Assembly (NCBI GenBank): GCA_958295805.1
Contig: OY282373.1
Coordinates: forward strand, 405,001-469,000
Length of the DNA stretch: 64,000 nt
Direction: 5' to 3'
Source: an uncultured Nitrospirales bacterium
GTDB lineage: Bacteria; Nitrospirota; Nitrospiria; Nitrospirales; UBA8639
A program made the position numbers and the translations under genes. Positions 4,738 through 36,568 of the stretch are shown piece by piece. Within the stretch, counting starts at the first letter, position 1, and each line of letters starts with the position of its first letter. The notes below the pieces were generated by a model. The model did not search any database. It saw only the letters and a list, made by a program, of their open reading frames with translations, and was not told where the DNA came from.

Positions 4738-5346
4738 ATGACCGGGCAACGGCACCAGGGACGGCTCGCAAAACTGGCAAAAGAATTCGTTCGGTTGCCC
4801 GGCATTGGACAAAAAACCTCGCAGCGCCTCGCGTTTCACATGATGAAAGCGAACAAAGAGGATGCAATGCGCTTGGCCGATGCGATCCGGGACGTCAAAG
4901 AATTTGTGACGTTTTGCGTGCAATGCCGGAATATTGCCGAAAGCGAATTGTGCGAGATTTGCCAGGACCCGCGACGGGACCGCAGCAAAATTCTGGTCGT
5001 GGAAGAACCCAGCACCTTACACGCGATTGATCAATGCCGTGGCTATAAAGGGTTGTATCACGTCCTGATGGGGTCGCTTTCCCCTTTGGACGGCGTGGGC
5101 CCGTCCGATATTCGTGCGAAGGAACTGGAGTTGCGCGTCAAGGACGGAGAAGTTGGAGAAGTCATCGTCGCGACGAGTCCGACCATTGAAGGGGAAGCCA
5201 CGGCCATTTATCTCACGAAACTCTTAACGCCCCATGGCGTCACGGTCTCACGCATTGCGTATGGCATTCCCGTCGGCATGGATATCGAATACGCCGACGA
5301 AGTGACGCTGACCAAATCCATCGAAGGCCGCCGCGAACTCTCGTAG
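4738..5346 (+). CDS. recR: Recombination mediator protein RecR
   Basis: 202 residues. RecR works with RecF/RecO to load RecA at single-strand gaps. The N-terminal helix-hairpin-helix (FVRLPGIGQKTSQRLAFH) is followed by a four-cysteine zinc motif (FCVQCRNI ... LCEICQDP) and the Toprim domain (ILVVEEPSTLHAID, with YKGLYHVLMGSLSPLDGVGP). The C-terminal walker-like strand region (TLTKSIEGR) is present. Length matches the family norm of about 200. The gene follows ebfC by 15 bases and ends in TAG, which shows UAG serves as an ordinary stop in this genome. Confidence 0.95.
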   Translation: MTGQRHQGRLAKLAKEFVRLPGIGQKTSQRLAFHMMKANKEDAMRLADAIRDVKEFVTFCVQCRNIAESELCEICQDPRRDRSKILVVEEPSTLHAIDQCRGYKGLYHVLMGSLSPLDGVGPSDIRAKELELRVKDGEVGEVIVATSPTIEGEATAIYLTKLLTPHGVTVSRIAYGIPVGMDIEYADEVTLTKSIEGRRELS

Positions 5347-15433: not shown

Positions 15434-16540
15434 TCACGGCGATGCCAACGTGCGCACGGGCTGGCCCGGGAACAGGCGTTCATTGCCCTCCACCACGACG
15501 GTCATGCCCTCGTGAAGTTCCCCCTTGACTTCAAGGCGGTCCTCGAAGTGCATGACCGGAGTCACCGGCACTTGCTGAACCATTCCCTCATTGACCAGAA
15601 ACACAAACTCCTTGCCGCCCCGCAGGACCAGGGCATCCTTGGGAATGACCAAGCCTTCGTGAGCATGACCCACGGGGAGCGTCACGCGCGACACCATGCC
15701 GCTTTTAATCGCCAACGACGGATTCGGAATATCCACTTTGACCGGGAAGGTTCTCGCAACTCGGTCGGCTTGGGCAATCACGGAAAAGACCGTGCCCTGA
15801 GCCACAAACCCGCGGAGGCCGTCAAAGACGGCCGTCACGGGGTCGTGGATTTGAATGTGTTGCACGTAGCGCTCTGGAAGCGGGACCGCGACCTGGACGT
15901 GAGACAGGTCAACCATCTCGATAATCGCACCGCCTTCTTCCACCCACTGCCCGATCTCGGTAAATTCCTGCGTAATCCATCCATCGAAAGGAGCCAGAAT
16001 TCTGGATTTGTTGAGCAGGTCTCGGACGCGCTGGATTTCAGTGCCGAGTTGAGCCAGTCGTTCTCGAAGCGCGCCTTCCTCGGCCAGGGCGTCGTCAAAT
16101 TGCTTTTGGGTGACGAGTTCTTTGGCAAAGAGCACGCGCATTCGGTTCAGATCCTGTTTGGCTTGGCGATAGCGGGTTTTCGCCTCTCGATGCGAGGCCA
16201 GGACGGAATCGAGTTGGATGTGCCACGTGCGCGTCCGCAATTGTGCCAACAATTGCCCGCGTGTGACCGTCATGCCCTCTTCAGCCGGAAACGCTTGGAC
16301 AATTCCCTCCACCTCACTGGCCACGACGCTGCGTTTCCATGGTTCGACGGACCCGACCAACGTGACCGTTTGCTTGACCTCCTGCATAAGGACCGACGCC
16401 ACCCGAACGGGCGTGGGCGGTGGACCTTGGGGCGGCGGCGCGGCCTGTTGCTCGCTACATCCCGTCATCGTCACCAAGCCCAGGAACAGAACGGGCCAAA
16501 TTTTGCGAAGGAACGGTTGCAAAGAGGGTACGATGGTCAT
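15434..16540 (-). CDS. RND efflux periplasmic adaptor lipoprotein (MFP/HlyD family)
   Basis: 368 residues from ATG 16540. A lipoprotein signal peptide ends in LVTMTGC, so the mature protein would be lipid-anchored, like AcrA. Then come the barrel-sandwich/lipoyl half (VTLVGSVEPWKRSVVASEVEG), a coiled-coil hairpin (about 120-190) and the second lipoyl half (ILAPFDGWITQEF), a beta-barrel and the membrane-proximal domain. It bridges the pump and the TolC-like channel. It is the first gene of the operon; the pump ATG lies 7 bases after its stop. A GTG at 16579 would add 13 residues. A Gln/Pro-rich stretch follows the lipid-attachment cysteine. Confidence 0.9.
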   Translation of the reverse strand: MTIVPSLQPFLRKIWPVLFLGLVTMTGCSEQQAAPPPQGPPPTPVRVASVLMQEVKQTVTLVGSVEPWKRSVVASEVEGIVQAFPAEEGMTVTRGQLLAQLRTRTWHIQLDSVLASHREAKTRYRQAKQDLNRMRVLFAKELVTQKQFDDALAEEGALRERLAQLGTEIQRVRDLLNKSRILAPFDGWITQEFTEIGQWVEEGGAIIEMVDLSHVQVAVPLPERYVQHIQIHDPVTAVFDGLRGFVAQGTVFSVIAQADRVARTFPVKVDIPNPSLAIKSGMVSRVTLPVGHAHEGLVIPKDALVLRGGKEFVFLVNEGMVQQVPVTPVMHFEDRLEVKGELHEGMTVVVEGNERLFPGQPVRTLASP

Positions 16541-17318
16541 CACAAGATCAATCAACGTTCTTTTCAATCTTAATACCACTCAGGAACAGCGAACGAACCT
16601 TACCAAGCAGAGAAACCTTCCCTGCCCTTTGTCAGGTGAGGGAAGGTGGGGTAGAGGGGAGAGATGAACTGGTCTTATCAACGAATTCATGGCTCCATAC
16701 AGGAATAACGGCTGCATCGTTTTGCGAGAGAACTCCATATCAGATTATGAAAGAACCCTTCTCATTTATGATAGGTCATTTCACAAAACGGGACAACCAT
16801 TCCGTTTTTCGCCAGTCAATAGCAGGCCAAGTTATCCGGCGAAAGAGAACTCTTTTGAGTTTTTAGCGGAAATCCAGAGCCCGTGGCCTAAGACGCGGGA
16901 CCTACATCTGAATAGGGATGTGATGAGTCAGACCAAATTTCCACTCTCTCTCTTAAAGAGAAAACAAGGTGTGAGAGAAAGAAGAAGCGGAGTGTCAGAC
17001 CGAGTTGTCCATTGGGCAGAACGGGAGGACTGGAGTAATGCTGAAGCTATTGCCGGTGAGGTGATATGGGTGACGTCTTCGGCTAAACTGACCGGCAGTT
17101 ACTGAGGGACTGGTTACAGTATACTTTGTTGCCCAATCAATTCCTCAGAGTCATGGTATCCCTCGCCGGATGCCGTTTTCCTCGTCAGACCAATGCATCC
17201 TTAATCTCCTGTTCAAAAATGTGGGGTCATCTCAGCCTTCTGAAACTGGGCAATTCTCAAGTTTGGGGGAGAAACTGTGTTGAATAAACTGGATAATTGG
17301 GGAAACGCGCCCGGAACG
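16541..17318. other. Intergenic region without a supported gene
   Basis: About 780 bases. A repeat with a TTCCCTGCCC...GTGAGGGAAGG hairpin and GGGGAGAG lies at 16612-16668. A plus-strand frame at 16689-17105 (138 codons) shows no family resemblance and no clear ribosome-binding site, so it is not annotated. The rest is featureless at this level of reading. Confidence 0.5.
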
Positions 17319-17999
17319 TTACTGATCGGTAATTGTATCGAACATACTCAACTGGCCATCGTAGACGGTAAACGAGTAGCATTTCTGTACGACTGGCTCA
17401 GAGCTACTTTTACCAAAGATCTTCAGATCGAGCTGATACCTCCCAATTTTAAATGATTCAAGTTGTTTATCCGCTCGGGATTTCATTTTGTTGAACAAAA
17501 TGTCGCTGGTCTTGAATCCTACGCCGTGCCTCATGCCGGGGGAAGAATTTATTTCCTTGCTTAACTGTCTGTAAATTTTTATGCGCTCACTTTCTAGTGC
17601 TGAATCGAACTGTTCATGGAACGTGATTTGCCCACCCCATGTTTCGCCAGGCGGTATGACAATATGGCCAAACGGTATCTGCTGGTACGGGAAAGCAGAA
17701 GTTTCCGGTTTGGAGTAAGTTTGGGCCAACAAGGTCTTCTTAAAAGAGGGACTATCAGGTTTGGTAAGGATGAAATCGATCTTGTAAATCGTTCCTCGGG
17801 CATTCCCCGAATTGTTGATCTATAGAAAGGAAGATAGAACAATCTCGCCAAGAGTGTGACTGACTTGGAGGTTACTGTTGTCTGTGACGTTCAACTTGGG
17901 CGCGGCGAAATAGCTCTAGAGGGGCGGGAACTAGGAGAGAACAATCGCAATGATCGCGACCACCAAGGAAAGCCATCCGATAAGGTTTTTGTTCTTCAT
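17319..17999 (-). pseudogene. Membrane-anchored protein frame with three in-frame UAG codons
   Basis: From ATG 17999 (GGAGG 8 bases upstream) to TAA 17319 the frame is exactly 227 codons long with no frameshift, but TAG occurs at codons 23 (17931-17933), 28 (17916-17918) and 60 (17820-17822). The product would have an N-terminal membrane helix (KNLIGWLSLVVAIIAIVLS), a short PP-containing turn, and an extracytoplasmic beta-sandwich-like domain (SYFAAPKLNVTDNS, INNSGNARGTIYKIDF, GHIVIPPGETWGGQI). The context of codons 23 and 60 suggests they replaced Gln (CAG to TAG). The rest of the protein looks under coding constraint. It may be a recent pseudogene, or an unusual read-through gene; recR and gdx in this window end in TAG, so UAG is not generally reassigned. 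Its ATG overlaps the stop of an ankyrin frame. Confidence 0.75.
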
Positions 18000-18199
18000 A
18001 TGGAGTTACCTCCTATAGCAGTTTTGGCCCAATGGAGAGGGGGCCAGCCGTTTTCACCCTCAGTCCTGGCATTGGGGTCGGCTCCGGCAGCCAAGAGGTC
18101 CTTTACAGTGGCGGTGTCGCCCTTCTCTGCGGCATCGTGGAGGGGCGGGATGCTGGAATATGCCGGGATGGGGAAGGCCATGAATAGCATGACGGCCAT
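17996..18199 (-). pseudogene. Truncated ankyrin-repeat protein
   Basis: 67 residues: a signal-like N-terminus (MAVMLFMAFPIPAYS), then one full ankyrin repeat (PPLHDAAEKGDTATVKDLLAAGADPNAR) and the beginning of a second (GWPPLHWA). The frame then runs through what looks like the ribosome-binding site of the next gene (IGGNSI) and stops, overlapping its ATG. Ankyrin proteins normally carry several repeats, so this is probably the surviving 5' end of a longer gene. A deletion joining it to the downstream gene would explain the arrangement. Confidence 0.5.
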
Positions 18200-18300
18200 G
18201 GTTTGTGTGAGTGGATATGGAAAACGTGGGGGCTGTGAGGTCCTTTCGTTGGCGATGATGTCCTGGCGGTCCGGCCCGTCGCCGGTGCCGTGCGATCAGG

Positions 18301-18861
18301 TCAGATCAAGGCGACGATGAGCGTGACGATTATGCCTCCTTGAGCGATCAGGGCGCCGAACATCCATTTCAGCAAGTCGGCCTTGAGGTTTGCGATATCG
18401 GCCTTGGTTTCTTTTCGCAGGACTTCAATATCCCGTTGGATGAGGGCAATGTCGGTCTTGGTGGCCTGCTGCAGGACTTCGATGTCGGTCTTGGTGGCCT
18501 GCCGCAGGGCTTCGATGTCGGTCTTGGTGGCCAGCCGCAGGGCTTCGATGTCGGCCTTGGTTTCTTTTCGTAAGGCTTCAATATCCCGCTGGATGAGAGC
18601 GATGTCGGTCTTGGTGGCCTGCTGCAGGGCTTCGATGTCAGTCTTGGTGGCCAGCCGCAGGGCTTCGATGTCGGCCTTGGTTTCTTTTCGTAAGGCTTCA
18701 ATATCCCGCTGGATGAGAGCGATGTCGGTCTTGGTGGCCAGATTGCTGTTGAGCAGGTTGACCTGCTCGTTCGCCAAGACCTCGGCCTGTTCCTCGGTGA
18801 ACCCGTGATCCGTCAGGTTTTTGACAAAGCGATGGGTGTCGAAGGCGATAGCTTCACTCAT
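18301..18861 (-). CDS. DUF1640-like coiled-coil membrane protein with tandem repeats
   Basis: 186 residues starting MSEAIAFDTHRFVKNL. The N-terminal ~45 residues and the C-terminal membrane helix (FGALIAQGGIIVTLIVALI) match the small DUF1640-like proteins at 46.7 and 47.3 kb of this window, but the middle is expanded. A 40-residue unit (11+11+11+7: DIEALRKETKA, DIEALRLATKT, DIEALQQATKT, DIALIQR) is repeated, giving a long hendecad coiled coil. At DNA level the 120-bp unit is identical over about 78 bases between 18541 and 18661, indicating recent expansion. Probably an oligomeric membrane-tethered rod; function unknown. Confidence 0.75.
   Translation of the reverse strand: MSEAIAFDTHRFVKNLTDHGFTEEQAEVLANEQVNLLNSNLATKTDIALIQRDIEALRKETKADIEALRLATKTDIEALQQATKTDIALIQRDIEALRKETKADIEALRLATKTDIEALRQATKTDIEVLQQATKTDIALIQRDIEVLRKETKADIANLKADLLKWMFGALIAQGGIIVTLIVALI
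18390..18740. repeat. Coding tandem repeats (120-bp period, 33-bp subunits)
   Basis: Blocks beginning GGCTTCGATGTCGGCCTTGG at 18541 and 18661 are identical for about 78 bases. Shorter ~30-33-bp subunits with CTTCGATGTCGGTCTTGGTG recur between them. They encode the hendecad coiled coil of the overlapping gene and are not a CRISPR array. Confidence 0.85.
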
Positions 18862-18984
18862 GGCCGCCAATCTACGTTATCCTCTCACCGGATGCAACAC
18901 AGGCTCCAGGCTCCCCGTGTCTGAACCACGATGAGCAGACGCCGCCTTCCTGGTCCCGGCTGCTCGGGCATGGGTCCGGAACAT

Positions 18985-19683
18985 TTATTCAGGAGGTTTT
19001 TGAGTTGCTGAGGGATGGGAAAGGGACGGAGGTACGTTCAGCGTTGAAGGTGGGTTCTGGTGATTTCCATTAGCCGGCGCACCGGAGACGCCACCGGAGA
19101 CGATGAAGGCCATGATCTCGGCGCTTTCGGCTTGAAGGGGACGGATTTGACTGCGAGGAAAGACTAACAGATGGCCGGCGAAGTTGTAGGATTGCGGAAA
19201 GTAGACGGCAACTCGGTCGTCCAACCCGAACATGGCCAAATCCTGGCACGTGACGAACCCGATGGCTTCGGCGTGTCCGCCGGGGATGAGCGTGACGAGG
19301 ACGGGTTGGTCAAAACGTTTTTTCTCACCCATGAACGCTTCGATGAGATCTTTCAGCGACGTGTACACCAGTTTGACAAAGGGAGTGCGCGTGAGAATTT
19401 TTTCTAATGAGCCTAACGCTCCCTGGAAGAATACGTTCGAGGCAAGCCGCCCGACGAGAATCATCATGCCGATGGTCAGGAGAAACCCGATGCCTGGAAT
19501 GGGAATGTTCAGCCAACCGTCAATAAAACTGAAGACCACAAAGACGACGTAGATGGTGACGGCCACCGGGACAACGAGAAACAGGCCTTCAAAGAAATTT
19601 TTGGCCAATTCCTGCATGTCCCACCGCTTGGGAATGGCTTCGTCTTTCAGCGATTTGAGTATGTGTTTCCAATCAACGCTCAT
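18985..19683 (-). CDS. DUF502 family membrane protein
   Basis: 232 residues. Two membrane helices (FFEGLFLVVPVAVTIYVVFVV and IPGIGFLLTIGMMILVG) are followed by the conserved DUF502 soluble part: TPFVKLVYTSLKDLIEAF, PVLVTLIP, AIGFVT, VAVYFPQSYN (normally a PTTPNP-like motif) and IMAFIVSGGV. The family is widespread and uncharacterised. The C-terminal 35 residues are Pro/Ser/Asn-rich and disordered. It stands alone on its strand between the coiled-coil gene and a divergent small gene. Confidence 0.85.
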   Translation of the reverse strand: MSVDWKHILKSLKDEAIPKRWDMQELAKNFFEGLFLVVPVAVTIYVVFVVFSFIDGWLNIPIPGIGFLLTIGMMILVGRLASNVFFQGALGSLEKILTRTPFVKLVYTSLKDLIEAFMGEKKRFDQPVLVTLIPGGHAEAIGFVTCQDLAMFGLDDRVAVYFPQSYNFAGHLLVFPRSQIRPLQAESAEIMAFIVSGGVSGAPANGNHQNPPSTLNVPPSLSHPSATQKPPE

Positions 19684-23758: not shown

Positions 23759-24110
23759 TGGTGGAGGTGGCGGGAGTTGAACCCGCGTCCGAAGACATTC
23801 AGCGCAACGGTCCTACGTGTGTAGTCAATGTTTTACGATTCGTGGTCGCCCACGCCCACTGACCGGCTTAGAACGCTCACTAGCCCAGAGAAGTCTCATC
23901 CGCCGCCGCTGAGCACCAGCATTGGACCAGCCTGCTGAAGTAGCGTCTCATCCATGCCCGCAGACAAAGAATGACGAGACGTCGCAGTCAATTAAGCTGC
24001 GAGAGCCAATGGTTCGTTGGCACTTATAGGTTTCCCGAAGGTTTAACGAGACTCCGAGAGCTCGACACGCACCGTTGACTTCCTGATCCCCGTCGAAACC
24101 AGTCACCCCC
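23759..24110 (-). ncRNA. ssrA: tmRNA (tag ANEPLALAA)
   Basis: A 352-base tmRNA that rescues stalled ribosomes. The 5' end GGGGGTGACTGGTTTCGACG and 3' end GGTTCAACTCCCGCCACCTCC-ACCA form the tRNA-like domain, with acceptor GGGGGTG pairing CACCTCC and an encoded CCA (23759-23761). The reading frame GCC AAC GAA CCA TTG GCT CTC GCA GCT TAA gives the degradation tag ANEPLALAA (after the alanine carried by the tRNA-like part). The 3' end faces left, away from the phosphorothioation-type genes that begin 230 bases beyond its 5' end. Confidence 0.95.
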
Positions 24111-24342: not shown

Positions 24343-25326
24343 ATGTCCGAGGTTTATAGAAGTGCATTGGAAATGGGAAAAAAGTATCGGATTTCTGGTC
24401 ACGAGACGTTTCCATGCCGCTATGCGTGGATGCCCAAGGCCGTGCGTGGTCTACAAAAAGATCCGAAACTTTTTTTGGACGAAACCAAGGCCATGGTCAA
24501 TTTAGGCGTCGGGAAAAATATGGTTCGTTCCATTCGTTTTTGGTCACAAGTGATGGGCATGGTGGAGGGAGAGACAAAAGGGCAAAATTCTGAGGTTACT
24601 GAAATTGGAAGAGTCCTACTTGCTGAAAAAGGGCTTGATCCTTTTCTCGAAGACATTCGAACACTTTGGCTTCTCCACTGGAATCTATCCACTGATAGAA
24701 CGAATCCACTATTAGCATGGGACTTTCTGCTGAACCACTGGCAGGACCCTGAACTTGTGCCACGTGCCGTTCTCAAGGCACTCCAAAAGGAGGTGCAGAA
24801 GCAGGAGAATCAACCCTCGGTCACGTTGAAACAACACTTCAACACGTTTCTCCACACTTACTATCCAACTCGGGGCCGAAAAGGAGAAGTTCAGGAAGAC
24901 AATCTTGATTGTCCGCTCGTCGAACTTGCATTCATCACGAAAATAGGAGAGCGCGAACTCGACCGCCGGTCAGGTAAACATGAAACGATTTATGGATTTC
25001 ATCGTGAGGAAAAATCCGACATCAGCCCACAACTCTTTGTTTACTGCCTCAACGATTTTTGGCAAAAACGGCATAGGGCGGAATCGACCTTGACGTTACG
25101 GGAGATTGCGTATGGTTACGGCAGTCCGGGCCAGATATTCAAACTTCCAGAGGAAGATATACGAACGCGAGTTGAGGCTTTGGCACAGCAAACCAATGGA
25201 TTCTTACGCTACGTGGAATCTGTAACCCTGCAACAAGTCCAAAAAACCCGAGACAGGGATAGCATCGAACTGCTAAGGGAAGTGTATACGGGTGCGATGA
25301 ATGATGACTCAAAAAAGAATCGGTGA
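24343..25326 (+). CDS. sspB: DUF4007 family protein, SspB-like
   Basis: 327 residues. The DUF4007 signature is at the N-terminus: ISGHETFPCRYAWMPKAV, followed by LGVGKNMVRSIRFWSQ. In the single-stranded DNA phosphorothioation system SspABCD, SspB is, to my knowledge, the DUF4007 protein and acts as a nickase that opens DNA for sulfur insertion. The next two genes match SspC and SspD in type and order, which supports the call. The stop overlaps the next gene by 26 bases. Start uncertain: ATG 24343 or ATG 24373 (MGKKYRISGH), the latter closer to the conserved part. Confidence 0.75.
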   Translation: MSEVYRSALEMGKKYRISGHETFPCRYAWMPKAVRGLQKDPKLFLDETKAMVNLGVGKNMVRSIRFWSQVMGMVEGETKGQNSEVTEIGRVLLAEKGLDPFLEDIRTLWLLHWNLSTDRTNPLLAWDFLLNHWQDPELVPRAVLKALQKEVQKQENQPSVTLKQHFNTFLHTYYPTRGRKGEVQEDNLDCPLVELAFITKIGERELDRRSGKHETIYGFHREEKSDISPQLFVYCLNDFWQKRHRAESTLTLREIAYGYGSPGQIFKLPEEDIRTRVEALAQQTNGFLRYVESVTLQQVQKTRDRDSIELLREVYTGAMNDDSKKNR

Positions 25327-28300
25327 TCTGTTTCAAATCAGAAGCCGTTTCCTTCGGTCTGCCCATCTTGAACGGGATTTCGAAGACCCGGCCTGTTTGT
25401 CCGGGTACGTCATAACAGATTTCACCCGTTCCTGTTTGGCGCACGTGGCCAATGGACTTAAGCGAGGTTCCGGGCAACGAGCTTGGCGAATGACGGGTGA
25501 TTACGGCAGCGGCAAGTCGAGTTTTGCGCTGTTGCTTGCACACTGGTTTGCCGGCCGTGAAAAGGATTTTCCTCAAGAACTTCGCAAAGATGTTGGCTTT
25601 CGTCAGCTCGGTGTGCCACGACCACATGTTCCCGTGTTGGTCACGTGCTCCCGGCAGGCATTGGGAACTTCAATCCTCAATTCGCTCCACCAAACGCTCA
25701 CTCAGATTTATAAAGGCAGGGCTAAGATAAATCTTGTACGCGAAGTTGAGTATTTGCTTAAGACAAGACAAGAACCGACCGAAGACCAAATCTTCCAACT
25801 TGTTCTCAAAGTTAATTCCCGAATCATTGCAGATTCAAAGGGGAATGGACTGATCTTAATTTTAGATGAACTCGGGAAATTTTTAGAATTTGCCGCCTTG
25901 CATCCACAACGACAAGACGTATTTCTGTTGCAGCGTCTAGCCGAAGCTGCCTCGCGTAGCGGAGATCAACCGTTATTTATCGTCAGTCTTCTCCATCAGG
26001 GTTTCAATGCTTACTCGGATCTGCTCAGCCAGTCCGCTCAACGCGAATGGGAAAAAATTGCAGGGCGTTTTGAAGAAATTGTCTTCAATCAGCCTATCGA
26101 TCAAGTGGCCAACGTCGTTGCTTCAGCTATAAACGTTCGCACAGAGAAGATACCGAAAACGGAATCTCTGGAATTGAGACGGGCCATGGAACAAACCATT
26201 GCACTGGGGTGGTTTGGTTCTGGCTCAACCAAATCGCTGTCGAATGTTGTCCCTCGGCTTTACCCACTTCATCCGACGGTACTACCGATTCTCATCCGAA
26301 CGTTCCGACGATTCGGGCAGAACGAACGGTCGCTCTTCAGCTTCTTGTTATCGAATGAACCATTTGGTTTGCAGGCATTTTCAGAACAAAATGTACGAGA
26401 AGGAAACCTGTATCGCTTGCATAACTTCTACGATTATGTACGGACAACCTTCGGCCATCGCCTTGCCGTCCAGAGCTACCGCAGCCATTGGAACCTTATT
26501 GATTCCGTCGTCGAAAGTTTTGCGACGGAAGACGAACGCCAAGTCAAGATTCTAAAAACAGTGGGGATCCTCAACCTCATCAACGATGGTGATCTGTTAC
26601 CAAATGAGGAATCGGTTGTGCTGACGTTGGCGAGGGTTCACGAGACCGAAAAAGAACAGATTCGGAAGACGTTAAGAAAACTCCACCAGGACAGGCGAGT
26701 TCTCTACGACCGTGGTCGGGCTCGTGGCCTCTGCCTGTGGCCGCACACGTCTGTCGATCTAGAAAAAGCTTACGATGAGGCATGCCGAGCCGTTGATACA
26801 CCCCAGCATGTAGCCGGTCTCATCAAGGATTTTCTTGATTCCCGTCCTATCGTCGCTCGGCGGCATTACATTGAAACGGGTAACCTCCGTCACTTCGATA
26901 TCCGCTATTGCTCAGTGGATGAGTTGTCGGGTCTCTCTGAACAACACCTGACTCACGCCGATGGCTTCATCATCGTGCCGTTGTGTGAAACACCAACTGA
27001 GCATCAGACGGCATTAGCGTTCGCAGAAAAATCACTATTCGAGCAACGCTCGCACTGGCTTCTCGCAGTTCCTCGGCCGCTGAATCACCTCGCGAGTCTC
27101 GTCCAAGAGGTTCAACGATGGGAGTGGATTTCTACCAATATCCTTGAACTGAACGCTGATAAGTTTGCCCGAGAAGAGGTTTCACGGCAGAAAGCCGCAG
27201 TACGTTTGCAGTTGGAAAAAAGAATTCAAAGCTACATAGGATTCAAACAGTTCACCAGCCAAATGTCGCTCGAATGGTTTCACAAAGGGTGTCCCCTCAA
27301 TGTTCAAAATGGTCGAGATTTGCTATCTAGGCTGTCTCGTATTTCCGACAAAGTGTACAATCGTGCTCCAAGCATTCACAACGAACTTGTTAATCGCCGC
27401 AATCTGAGTTCGGCTGCGGCAGCGGCGCGAATGCGACTCATTGAACGCATGTTCACGGATGCGGGAACTAAATTTTTGGGCATGAATCCCGCGAAGAAAC
27501 CACCAGAGATGAGCATGTATCTCTCGGTGCTCAAAGATACGGGTATCCACCATGTGCGGGAAAACAGTTGGCGAATTGGTGAACCCAATGGAAATGTTGA
27601 CAAAAAATGTAATCTCCTTCCGACGTTACTTCGAATTCGTGAAATTGTGCTGAAAGAACTAGACAGCCGAGTCAACGTAGCCACGCTGTTTGCTGAATTG
27701 CGGAAACCACCTTATGGGGTTCGTGATGGACTCATTCCACTGCTACTGGCGGTATTTGCCATTACGCATGAAAAAGACGTGGCCTTTTACAAAGACGGAA
27801 CATTTCTGCGTGAACTGAACGGTGAAGTGATGCTCTTGCTTACGAAAGCGCCGGAGCGATTTGATATTCAACATTGCAAGATTGAAGGTGTTCGGGCTGA
27901 ACTGTTTCAACGGCTGCTGACCGTGTTGGATATCAAAGTCCCAGCACGGCGAGGATCCGAACTTCTTGACGTGGTAAAGCAACTCTGCGTTTTCGTTGCT
28001 CAACTCCCGACCTACGTGTTGAAGACACAAAAACTTTCTGTCGAGACATTAGCTGTTCGAGACAGTATCTTGAATGCGCGTGAACCCGTGAAACTGGTAT
28101 TCACAGAACTGCCGAAGGCATGTGGCTTTCAACCCATACGGGCTGAAGTCTCTACCAAAGAAACCGTGCCAGCTTTCGTGAAAACGTTAAAAGTCGCATT
28201 GGACGATTTGAAAGCGACGTTTCCAGAATTGCAGGAACGGTTGCGAATAGAGCTTCGTGCCGCATTTAACTTGCCCGGCACTTTTCAACAGTTCAGGACA

Positions 28301-28765
28301 GCACTCTCGTCACGTTCGAAGCAGATGTTGCTCACCGTCACAGAACCGAAACTTCGTGCCTTTTGTCTGCGTTTGATGGATGACAGCTTGCCGGAATCAG
28401 ATTGGCTTGAATCTATTGCGAGCCACCTTTCGCTCAAACCACCATCTAAGTGGCACGATATGGAAGAAGAAGTCTTCAGCCATGAGCTTGCCCAATACGC
28501 CGCAAAATTTCATCGCGTAGAAAGTATTGCATTCGCCGGGAGCAAATCGCTCAAGAATTCCATTGGGGTGCGGCTAGCAGTAACGCAAGCCGACGGTGTT
28601 GAACATGAGCAAGTGGTACACTACGCAGCAAACGAAGAAGATCAACTGCAAAACCTGCAAAGGCAATTTGAAGATTTGTTGACCGAAGACAAACGTCTTG
28701 GTCTCGTAGCGGCATCTCGGGTAATTCAGGCGAACTTGGGACAAGCGGAAAAAACGAAGACATGA
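25301..28765 (+). CDS. sspC: Large P-loop ATPase, SspC-like
   Basis: 1,154 residues. Walker A GDYGSGKSS (66-74) follows the AWRMT segment, and Walker B ILILDELGKF (from 185) ends in Asp-Glu. The ATPase core covers about residues 20-350; the remaining two thirds is helical with no motif I can name. Position between the DUF4007 gene and a PAPS-reductase-like gene matches SspC, whose ATPase activity is needed for phosphorothioate insertion. Resemblance to the BrxC/PglY class of phage-defence ATPases is also possible from sequence alone. Overlaps both neighbours (26 and 4 bases), so the three are translationally coupled. Base composition is closer to the host than the genes further downstream. 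Confidence 0.65.
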   Translation: MMTQKRIGDLFQIRSRFLRSAHLERDFEDPACLSGYVITDFTRSCLAHVANGLKRGSGQRAWRMTGDYGSGKSSFALLLAHWFAGREKDFPQELRKDVGFRQLGVPRPHVPVLVTCSRQALGTSILNSLHQTLTQIYKGRAKINLVREVEYLLKTRQEPTEDQIFQLVLKVNSRIIADSKGNGLILILDELGKFLEFAALHPQRQDVFLLQRLAEAASRSGDQPLFIVSLLHQGFNAYSDLLSQSAQREWEKIAGRFEEIVFNQPIDQVANVVASAINVRTEKIPKTESLELRRAMEQTIALGWFGSGSTKSLSNVVPRLYPLHPTVLPILIRTFRRFGQNERSLFSFLLSNEPFGLQAFSEQNVREGNLYRLHNFYDYVRTTFGHRLAVQSYRSHWNLIDSVVESFATEDERQVKILKTVGILNLINDGDLLPNEESVVLTLARVHETEKEQIRKTLRKLHQDRRVLYDRGRARGLCLWPHTSVDLEKAYDEACRAVDTPQHVAGLIKDFLDSRPIVARRHYIETGNLRHFDIRYCSVDELSGLSEQHLTHADGFIIVPLCETPTEHQTALAFAEKSLFEQRSHWLLAVPRPLNHLASLVQEVQRWEWISTNILELNADKFAREEVSRQKAAVRLQLEKRIQSYIGFKQFTSQMSLEWFHKGCPLNVQNGRDLLSRLSRISDKVYNRAPSIHNELVNRRNLSSAAAAARMRLIERMFTDAGTKFLGMNPAKKPPEMSMYLSVLKDTGIHHVRENSWRIGEPNGNVDKKCNLLPTLLRIREIVLKELDSRVNVATLFAELRKPPYGVRDGLIPLLLAVFAITHEKDVAFYKDGTFLRELNGEVMLLLTKAPERFDIQHCKIEGVRAELFQRLLTVLDIKVPARRGSELLDVVKQLCVFVAQLPTYVLKTQKLSVETLAVRDSILNAREPVKLVFTELPKACGFQPIRAEVSTKETVPAFVKTLKVALDDLKATFPELQERLRIELRAAFNLPGTFQQFRTALSSRSKQMLLTVTEPKLRAFCLRLMDDSLPESDWLESIASHLSLKPPSKWHDMEEEVFSHELAQYAAKFHRVESIAFAGSKSLKNSIGVRLAVTQADGVEHEQVVHYAANEEDQLQNLQRQFEDLLTEDKRLGLVAASRVIQANLGQAEKTKT

Positions 28766-29571
28766 GCCAGTCAACACGGCATATCCTCTGCATGTCGGGA
28801 GGCAAGGATAGTACCGCGCTCGCGCTTTATATGCGTGACCGCGTGGAGGACATGGAATATATCTTCTGCGATACCGACAAGGAGTTGACCGAAACGTATG
28901 CGTACTTGAATCGTGTTGAAGCGTTTTTGGGCAAGAAAATCGTCCGACTGAATGCCAAAGCCGGATTCGACCACTGGCTAGAGGTTTTTGGCGGGTATCT
29001 TCCCTCTCCCAATATGCGATGGTGTACAAGGTTGCTTAAATTGAAGCCCTTTGAGGAATACGTAGGTGAAGATTCCGTCGTCAGCTACGTTGGCCTTCGC
29101 GCCGATGAAGACAGAATTGGCTACATCAGCACCAAGCCAAATATAAAGGCAGAGTTCCCCTTCAAAGAAGATGGGATTGACTACGCGGGCGTCATGAAAA
29201 TTTTGCAAGACAGCGGCATTGGAATGCCGCCCTATCTTAAATGGGGGAGAACACACTCAGGATGCTACTTCTGTTTTTTTCAGCGTCCGATTGAATGGGT
29301 ACGACTGCTTGAAACACATCCCGACCAATTTGAGGAGGCCCAGAAGTATGAGAAGATTACGGATGATCCCGGTAAATCATTCACGTGGATTCAAGGCATG
29401 CCCTTGAGCGAACTTCGAAAACCTGAAAACGTCGCCAAAATCAAGAATCGTTATGCTGAATCTGAGGAACGGAAAAAAGCGAACCGAGGAAACAAAAGAC
29501 TTATCGAAGTCTTGGGCGATATGGAAGAAGATGACGATGAACCAAAAGCCTGTTTGATTTGCCAATTATGA
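28762..29571 (+). CDS. sspD: PAPS-reductase-like ATP pyrophosphatase, SspD/DndC-like
   Basis: 269 residues. The PP-loop SGGKDST (12-18) lies in HILCMSGGKDSTALALY and is followed by EYIFCDTDKELTETYAYL. Two cysteine sites suit an Fe-S cluster or sulfur relay: RWCTRLLKLKPF, SGCYFCFFQRP and a C-terminal CLICQL. Such proteins (DndC, SspD) activate the DNA backbone phosphate with ATP so sulfur can be added. No cysteine desulfurase (SspA) is encoded here, so sulfur would come from a host IscS-type enzyme. Its ATG overlaps the previous stop (ATGA). Confidence 0.75.
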   Translation: MSQSTRHILCMSGGKDSTALALYMRDRVEDMEYIFCDTDKELTETYAYLNRVEAFLGKKIVRLNAKAGFDHWLEVFGGYLPSPNMRWCTRLLKLKPFEEYVGEDSVVSYVGLRADEDRIGYISTKPNIKAEFPFKEDGIDYAGVMKILQDSGIGMPPYLKWGRTHSGCYFCFFQRPIEWVRLLETHPDQFEEAQKYEKITDDPGKSFTWIQGMPLSELRKPENVAKIKNRYAESEERKKANRGNKRLIEVLGDMEEDDDEPKACLICQL

Positions 29572-36046: not shown

Positions 36047-36247
36047 GGTCTGGTGTATCGTCTTTGAAAGAAAGCAACAAACTTACGGTATCCAGCTTCG
36101 CTTGCCTGTCCAGCCTTATACCGCACAGTCGAGTGAGACTCAACTCTGAAAAGTTGTGGTCAAGGCTCGCTCGTCGCAAAGACGTTTCTTTACATCCCTG
36201 GTTGTGCTACAAGACCTCTTTTGCCCGTTTTGGGAAAGGAGGGGGTG

Positions 36248-36568
36248 ATGGGATGGGTGTATTTATTCGTCGCGGGTGGGTTTGAGATTGTCTGGGTGGT
36301 CGGGCTTCAATATTCGGATGGGTTGACGCGGCTGTGGCCCAGCGTGGGGACGGTCGCGGCGTTGGGCGTCAGTATGGTGTGTTTGGCGTTGGCCTTGCGC
36401 GCTATCCCCATTGGAACGGCTTATGCGATCTGGACGGGAATCGGCGCGGTGGGGACGGCGATCATCGGCATTCTTTTGTTTCATGAGCCGCGTGACGTTG
36501 TCCGTCTGTTTTTTATCTTTGTGATTGTTGCTGGAATCGTGGGGCTGAAACTGTCCACGCCCAGCTAG
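36248..36568 (+). CDS. sugE: Small multidrug-resistance family exporter, Gdx/SugE type
   Basis: 106 residues, four membrane helices. The TM1 segment MGWVYLFVAGGFEIVWVVGL carries the essential Glu (E14) of SMR proteins, and TM3/4 read AYAIWTGIGAVGTAIIGILLF. The Gdx/SugE subgroup exports guanidinium with protons; the FEIVW and GTAYAIWTGIG signatures fit that group better than EmrE. ATG 36248 has a strong GGAGGGGG just upstream. I looked upstream for a guanidine riboswitch and could not identify one. The gene ends in TAG. Confidence 0.85.
   Translation: MGWVYLFVAGGFEIVWVVGLQYSDGLTRLWPSVGTVAALGVSMVCLALALRAIPIGTAYAIWTGIGAVGTAIIGILLFHEPRDVVRLFFIFVIVAGIVGLKLSTPS

Follow-up and report, generated by a model that had tools for sequence, protein, structure and literature searches.

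In-frame stop codons under purifying selection are reported to be widespread in bacteria, with a CAG/TAG site as a worked example and with the mobilome over-represented (Belinky et al. 2021, PMC7918605). Reassignment of TAG to glutamine is established for crAss-like phages (PMC9523058). A third point of comparison is the bacterial pseudogene that arises by nonsense substitution in acquired DNA. We analysed a window of 64,000 nucleotides from the genome of an uncultured Nitrospirales bacterium, assembled as a single contig of 2.90 Mb, in which one frame is interrupted by three TAG codons. The frame shares with the stops of Belinky et al., for which read-through was inferred, a site of the CAG/TAG type, an otherwise intact reading frame and the character of a mobile element, but carries three or four stops that are common to no orthologue, whereas those authors describe one shared stop. 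Its resemblance to pseudogenes of acquired DNA extends to multiple premature stops, a differing base composition, an insert absent from the same site in close relatives and a neighbour that is probably truncated; unlike such pseudogenes, it has no frameshift over 226 codons and concentrates three stops of the same type near the 5' end. We conclude with high confidence that the frame is a decaying pseudogene of a horizontally acquired accessory gene, disrupted by nonsense substitution.

The interrupted frame occupies positions 17319–17999 of the minus strand and comprises 226 codons followed by TAA, encoding a transmembrane helix and then a beta-rich domain. Read from 17999 to 17319, it opens with ATG and translates as MKNKNLIGWLSLVVAIIAIVLS, a stop, FPPL, a second stop and SYF; an AGGAGG resembling a Shine-Dalgarno site lies nine bases upstream of the ATG (18009–18014, minus strand). 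TAG occurs on the same strand at codons 23 (17931–17933), 28 (17916–17918) and 60 (17820–17822), and the frame contains neither TGA nor a frameshift. The sequence-only reading had described a 226-codon gene with a well-placed start, interrupted by three UAG codons and nothing else; the frame, its start and ribosome-binding sites and the three stops are as described, and it is the "nothing else" that is in doubt. The location of all three TAG codons within the first 60 codons is a crowding that we count against plain decay. The sequence of the frame is present once in the genome, and since the DNA of and beside the interrupted gene is likewise single-copy, a multicopy element was rejected.

Sequence searches with the interrupted protein produced one distant match, on a replicon of Paraburkholderia caribensis MBA4, and a profile then recovered one intact homologue from another family of the same phylum together with eight loci on viral contigs. 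These ten relatives (L033, L049, L051 and L098–L104) include two near-duplicate pairs and therefore represent eight distinct sequences. A single-sequence search found zero homologues in 48 genomes of the same family and 295 of the phylum, and the profile search found one clear homologue among 395; scans of genome contigs and phage records gave no relative. No family in Pfam, NCBIfam, PHROGs or PADLOC covers the protein at a meaningful score, and a fold search of the PDB with a modest query model (pLDDT 69) returned weak beta-sandwich matches with TM-scores of about 0.3. A by-product of the analysis is thus an unnamed protein family, found mainly on viral contigs, which none of the searched profile libraries recognises. 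Some of the relatives adjoin a phage integrase, a tail hub gene or AbiTii, and such neighbours suggest that the family travels on mobile elements as accessory cargo. The AbiTii abortive-infection gene lies beside the intact Paraburkholderia relative (positions 1437–2324 of that locus, minus strand).

All ten relatives are intact, are 248–277 amino acids long and lack in-frame TAG; the family is characterized by an N-terminal transmembrane helix, the motif SQ[LF]PP and a beta-rich domain. Over residues 9–226 the window protein aligns with the family profile (HMM E about 1e-30), a homology that includes an SxFPP motif, although identity to individual relatives is only about 17–24%, the nearest reaching about 24%. 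It matches the family in its helix, its S-x-[LF]PP motif, its beta-rich domain and an alignment over the whole length, and departs from it by the stops at codons 23, 28, 60 and 227 and by an alignment gap, several residues long, within its helical region. Positions conserved in the family are kept at 26 of 44 sites (0.59), against 0.55–0.84 in the intact relatives. The frame thus shows no decay apart from the stops, a point against the pseudogene reading; the stops may be of recent origin. As to the original role, the product can be described no further than as a membrane-anchored accessory protein.

The relatives also bear on the residues that the stops replaced. All ten have sense codons at positions 23, 28 and 60, so that, measured against intact relatives, the TAG codons appear as inactivating mutations. 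At codon 23 every relative has glutamine in the motif SQ[LF]PP (six CAG, four CAA). One of the two peptide patterns that found the viral-contig loci contained this glutamine, and some loci were thus selected for it; the residue is equally present in L049, found by a pattern located elsewhere in the protein, in L051, found by the profile, and in L033, for which the query carried Gln at that position. Codon 28 corresponds to Lys, Arg, His or Ile, and codon 60 to Thr, Ile, Asp, Gly, Ser, Asn or Arg. The proposal that two of the sites are former glutamine codons therefore holds for codon 23, where a change from CAG to TAG is well supported, and fails for codons 28 and 60, which are Gln in none of the ten relatives.

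The same residues speak to the possibility that the gene was a recent arrival from a source, phage or cellular, in which UAG is read as glutamine (code 15) and the TAG codons served as Gln codons. The family lives in phage-like DNA, and codon 23 is a conserved Gln position, both of which speak for such a source. We nevertheless rejected it as barely credible: TAG falls at a family Gln position in one of the three sites, codons 28 and 60 are never Gln, the ten relatives have no in-frame TAG, two of them (L099 and L100) terminate in TAG, and the surrounding insert has no recognisable phage genes.

Comparison with the family suggests that the terminal TAA is also premature. Codon 227 (17319–17321, minus strand) aligns with a conserved Tyr/Phe/Leu column, three residues ahead of an invariant Gly, and all ten relatives extend 24–43 residues from this column. 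The frame continues past the TAA as RSGRVSPIIQFIQHSFSPKLENCPVSEG, up to a TGA at codon 256; these 28 further open codons with their stop (17232–17318, minus strand) are a possible remnant of the original C-terminus, and reading through to the TGA would give a protein of 255 amino acids, compared with 248–277 in the family. Addition of the tail raises the profile score by 2.3 bits, a rise that 96 of 2000 random open tails also reached (p≈0.05), for which reason a fourth stop is suggested and not proven. The gene probably carries in this TAA its fourth premature stop, different in type from the TAG codons, which removes a C-terminus that every relative possesses. The relatives of a gene can thus show that a supposedly natural stop may be premature too.

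The uniform type of the three upstream stops had been taken as an argument against random decay, which was expected to mix stop types. We counted the single-base routes to stop codons over the frame, with the three TAG codons entered as CAG, and found 40 routes to TAG, 31 to TAA and 12 to TGA; with transitions only, the ratio TAG:TAA:TGA is 13:4:4. The probability that three stops arising by point mutation are all TAG is 0.11 with any substitution and 0.22 with transitions only, and the uniformity is therefore no evidence for recoding. With a chance of 11–22% and a probable fourth stop that is TAA, the expectation of mixed types carries little weight. A run of identical stops can mimic recoding, and a composition-aware count makes the present run unremarkable. 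The companion argument, that decay should leave indels, is fairer: three nonsense hits with zero frameshifts have a probability of about 0.02–0.2 (roughly 2–20%) under indel-to-substitution ratios from 0.05 to 0.136, the latter taken from mutation accumulation in T. turnerae (PMC5833318). The lack of a frameshift across 226 codons is mildly unusual and is counted against decay, its improbability being only mild because the case was selected after the fact.

The decoding apparatus gives no sign of altered UAG reading. The genes resembling recR (4738–5346) and sugE (36221–36568) both end in TAG, as had been noted from the sequence, and TAG terminates 5 of 40 long ORFs in the window. Release factor RF1 is intact with its GGQ and PxT motifs, and RF2 is intact as well, which indicates neither loss nor change of RF1. 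A CUA anticodon is absent both from the 43 tRNAs found, a list that is incomplete because it lacks tRNAs for Asn, Ile and Ala-TGC, and from a separate pattern scan, so the search for the suppressor tRNA that the sequence-only reading envisaged came back empty. No PylS was found, the single match to tRNA-synt_2d being as expected for PheS alone. By every sign, UAG is an ordinary stop in this genome. The whole-genome tRNA search (E<=0.001) did not find tRNA-Asn, tRNA-Ile and tRNA-Ala(TGC), which were probably missed rather than truly absent.

Selective read-through would mean that the gene works and that low-level suppression of UAG yields a little full-length protein. The intact frame, start and Shine-Dalgarno site, the retention of conserved residues at the level of intact relatives and the precedent of bacterial stops under purifying selection (PMC7918605) are compatible with this. 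We nonetheless regard it as quite unlikely. With no suppressor tRNA, no PylS, no recoded relative and an intact RF1, nothing positively supports read-through; no relative has a stop at codons 23, 28 or 60, and TAA 227 probably removes the conserved C-terminus as well. Leaky expression is improbable because three or four stops act in series and the loss is multiplied across them. Retention of a rare full-length protein made through the three UAG codons under the standard code, or of the 22-residue transmembrane peptide as a small membrane peptide, is very unlikely. Of the two explanations offered initially, recent transitions to TAG or read-through, it is decay by point mutation that fits best.

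A further alternative is that errors of sequencing or assembly, here of a single contig, affected three sites of an intact gene. Conserved neighbouring genes are uninterrupted, including those for an RND pump (1099 aa), an adaptor (381 aa), a DUF502 protein (232 aa) and an RF3-like protein (598 aa), and the sequences around the three TAG codons have no obvious motif in common. Errors in long reads are mostly indels, and no indels are seen in the frame. We consider such errors highly improbable.

The surroundings of the frame are those expected of the decaying acquired gene. It lies in lineage-specific DNA extending approximately from 16490 to 19063, between genes for the HlyD-type adaptor and the DUF502 protein, both conserved. 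The spacing of these two genes is about 2.6 kb here against about 0.3 kb, measured between aligned parts, in ten contigs of the same genus; some 2.5 kb carrying the interrupted gene are missing from the site in the ten same-genus genomes. The GC content of the interrupted gene is 44.9%, compared with 54.8% for the window. Besides this gene the insert contains a short ankyrin-repeat ORF of 67 amino acids, probably truncated (17996–18199, minus strand), which ends in a TGA that overlaps the start codon of the interrupted gene as ATGA. The remainder of the insert consists of a CCDC90-like gene (PF07798) and about 0.8 kb in which no genes are recognisable; a search for repeats at its borders was negative. 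The locus has the appearance of a small piece of acquired DNA that is decaying, probably obtained by transfer from mobile DNA.

We propose that a gene of the prophage-associated, membrane-anchored family entered the lineage with other DNA between the two conserved genes and, lacking selective retention, would have accumulated nonsense point mutations: the TAG codons at positions 23, 28 and 60 and probably also the TAA at position 227. Because the start site has stayed intact, translation would begin and would end after 22 residues, yielding the transmembrane helix only. The interrupted gene would thereby have lost its function.

Two further features were observed in the region. The CCDC90-like coiled-coil gene (18301–18870, minus strand) contains an internal array of direct repeats, and stretches related to it recur at several genomic sites, chiefly around 2.30 Mb and 1.69 Mb. 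Homologues of SspB, SspC and SspD, which belong to a phosphorothioate DNA modification defence, directly adjoin the tmRNA gene (23759–24110, minus strand), and after them come ParB-like genes and one for a protein of 800 amino acids that matches HATPase weakly; this region (24343–29571, plus strand) looks like a defence island.
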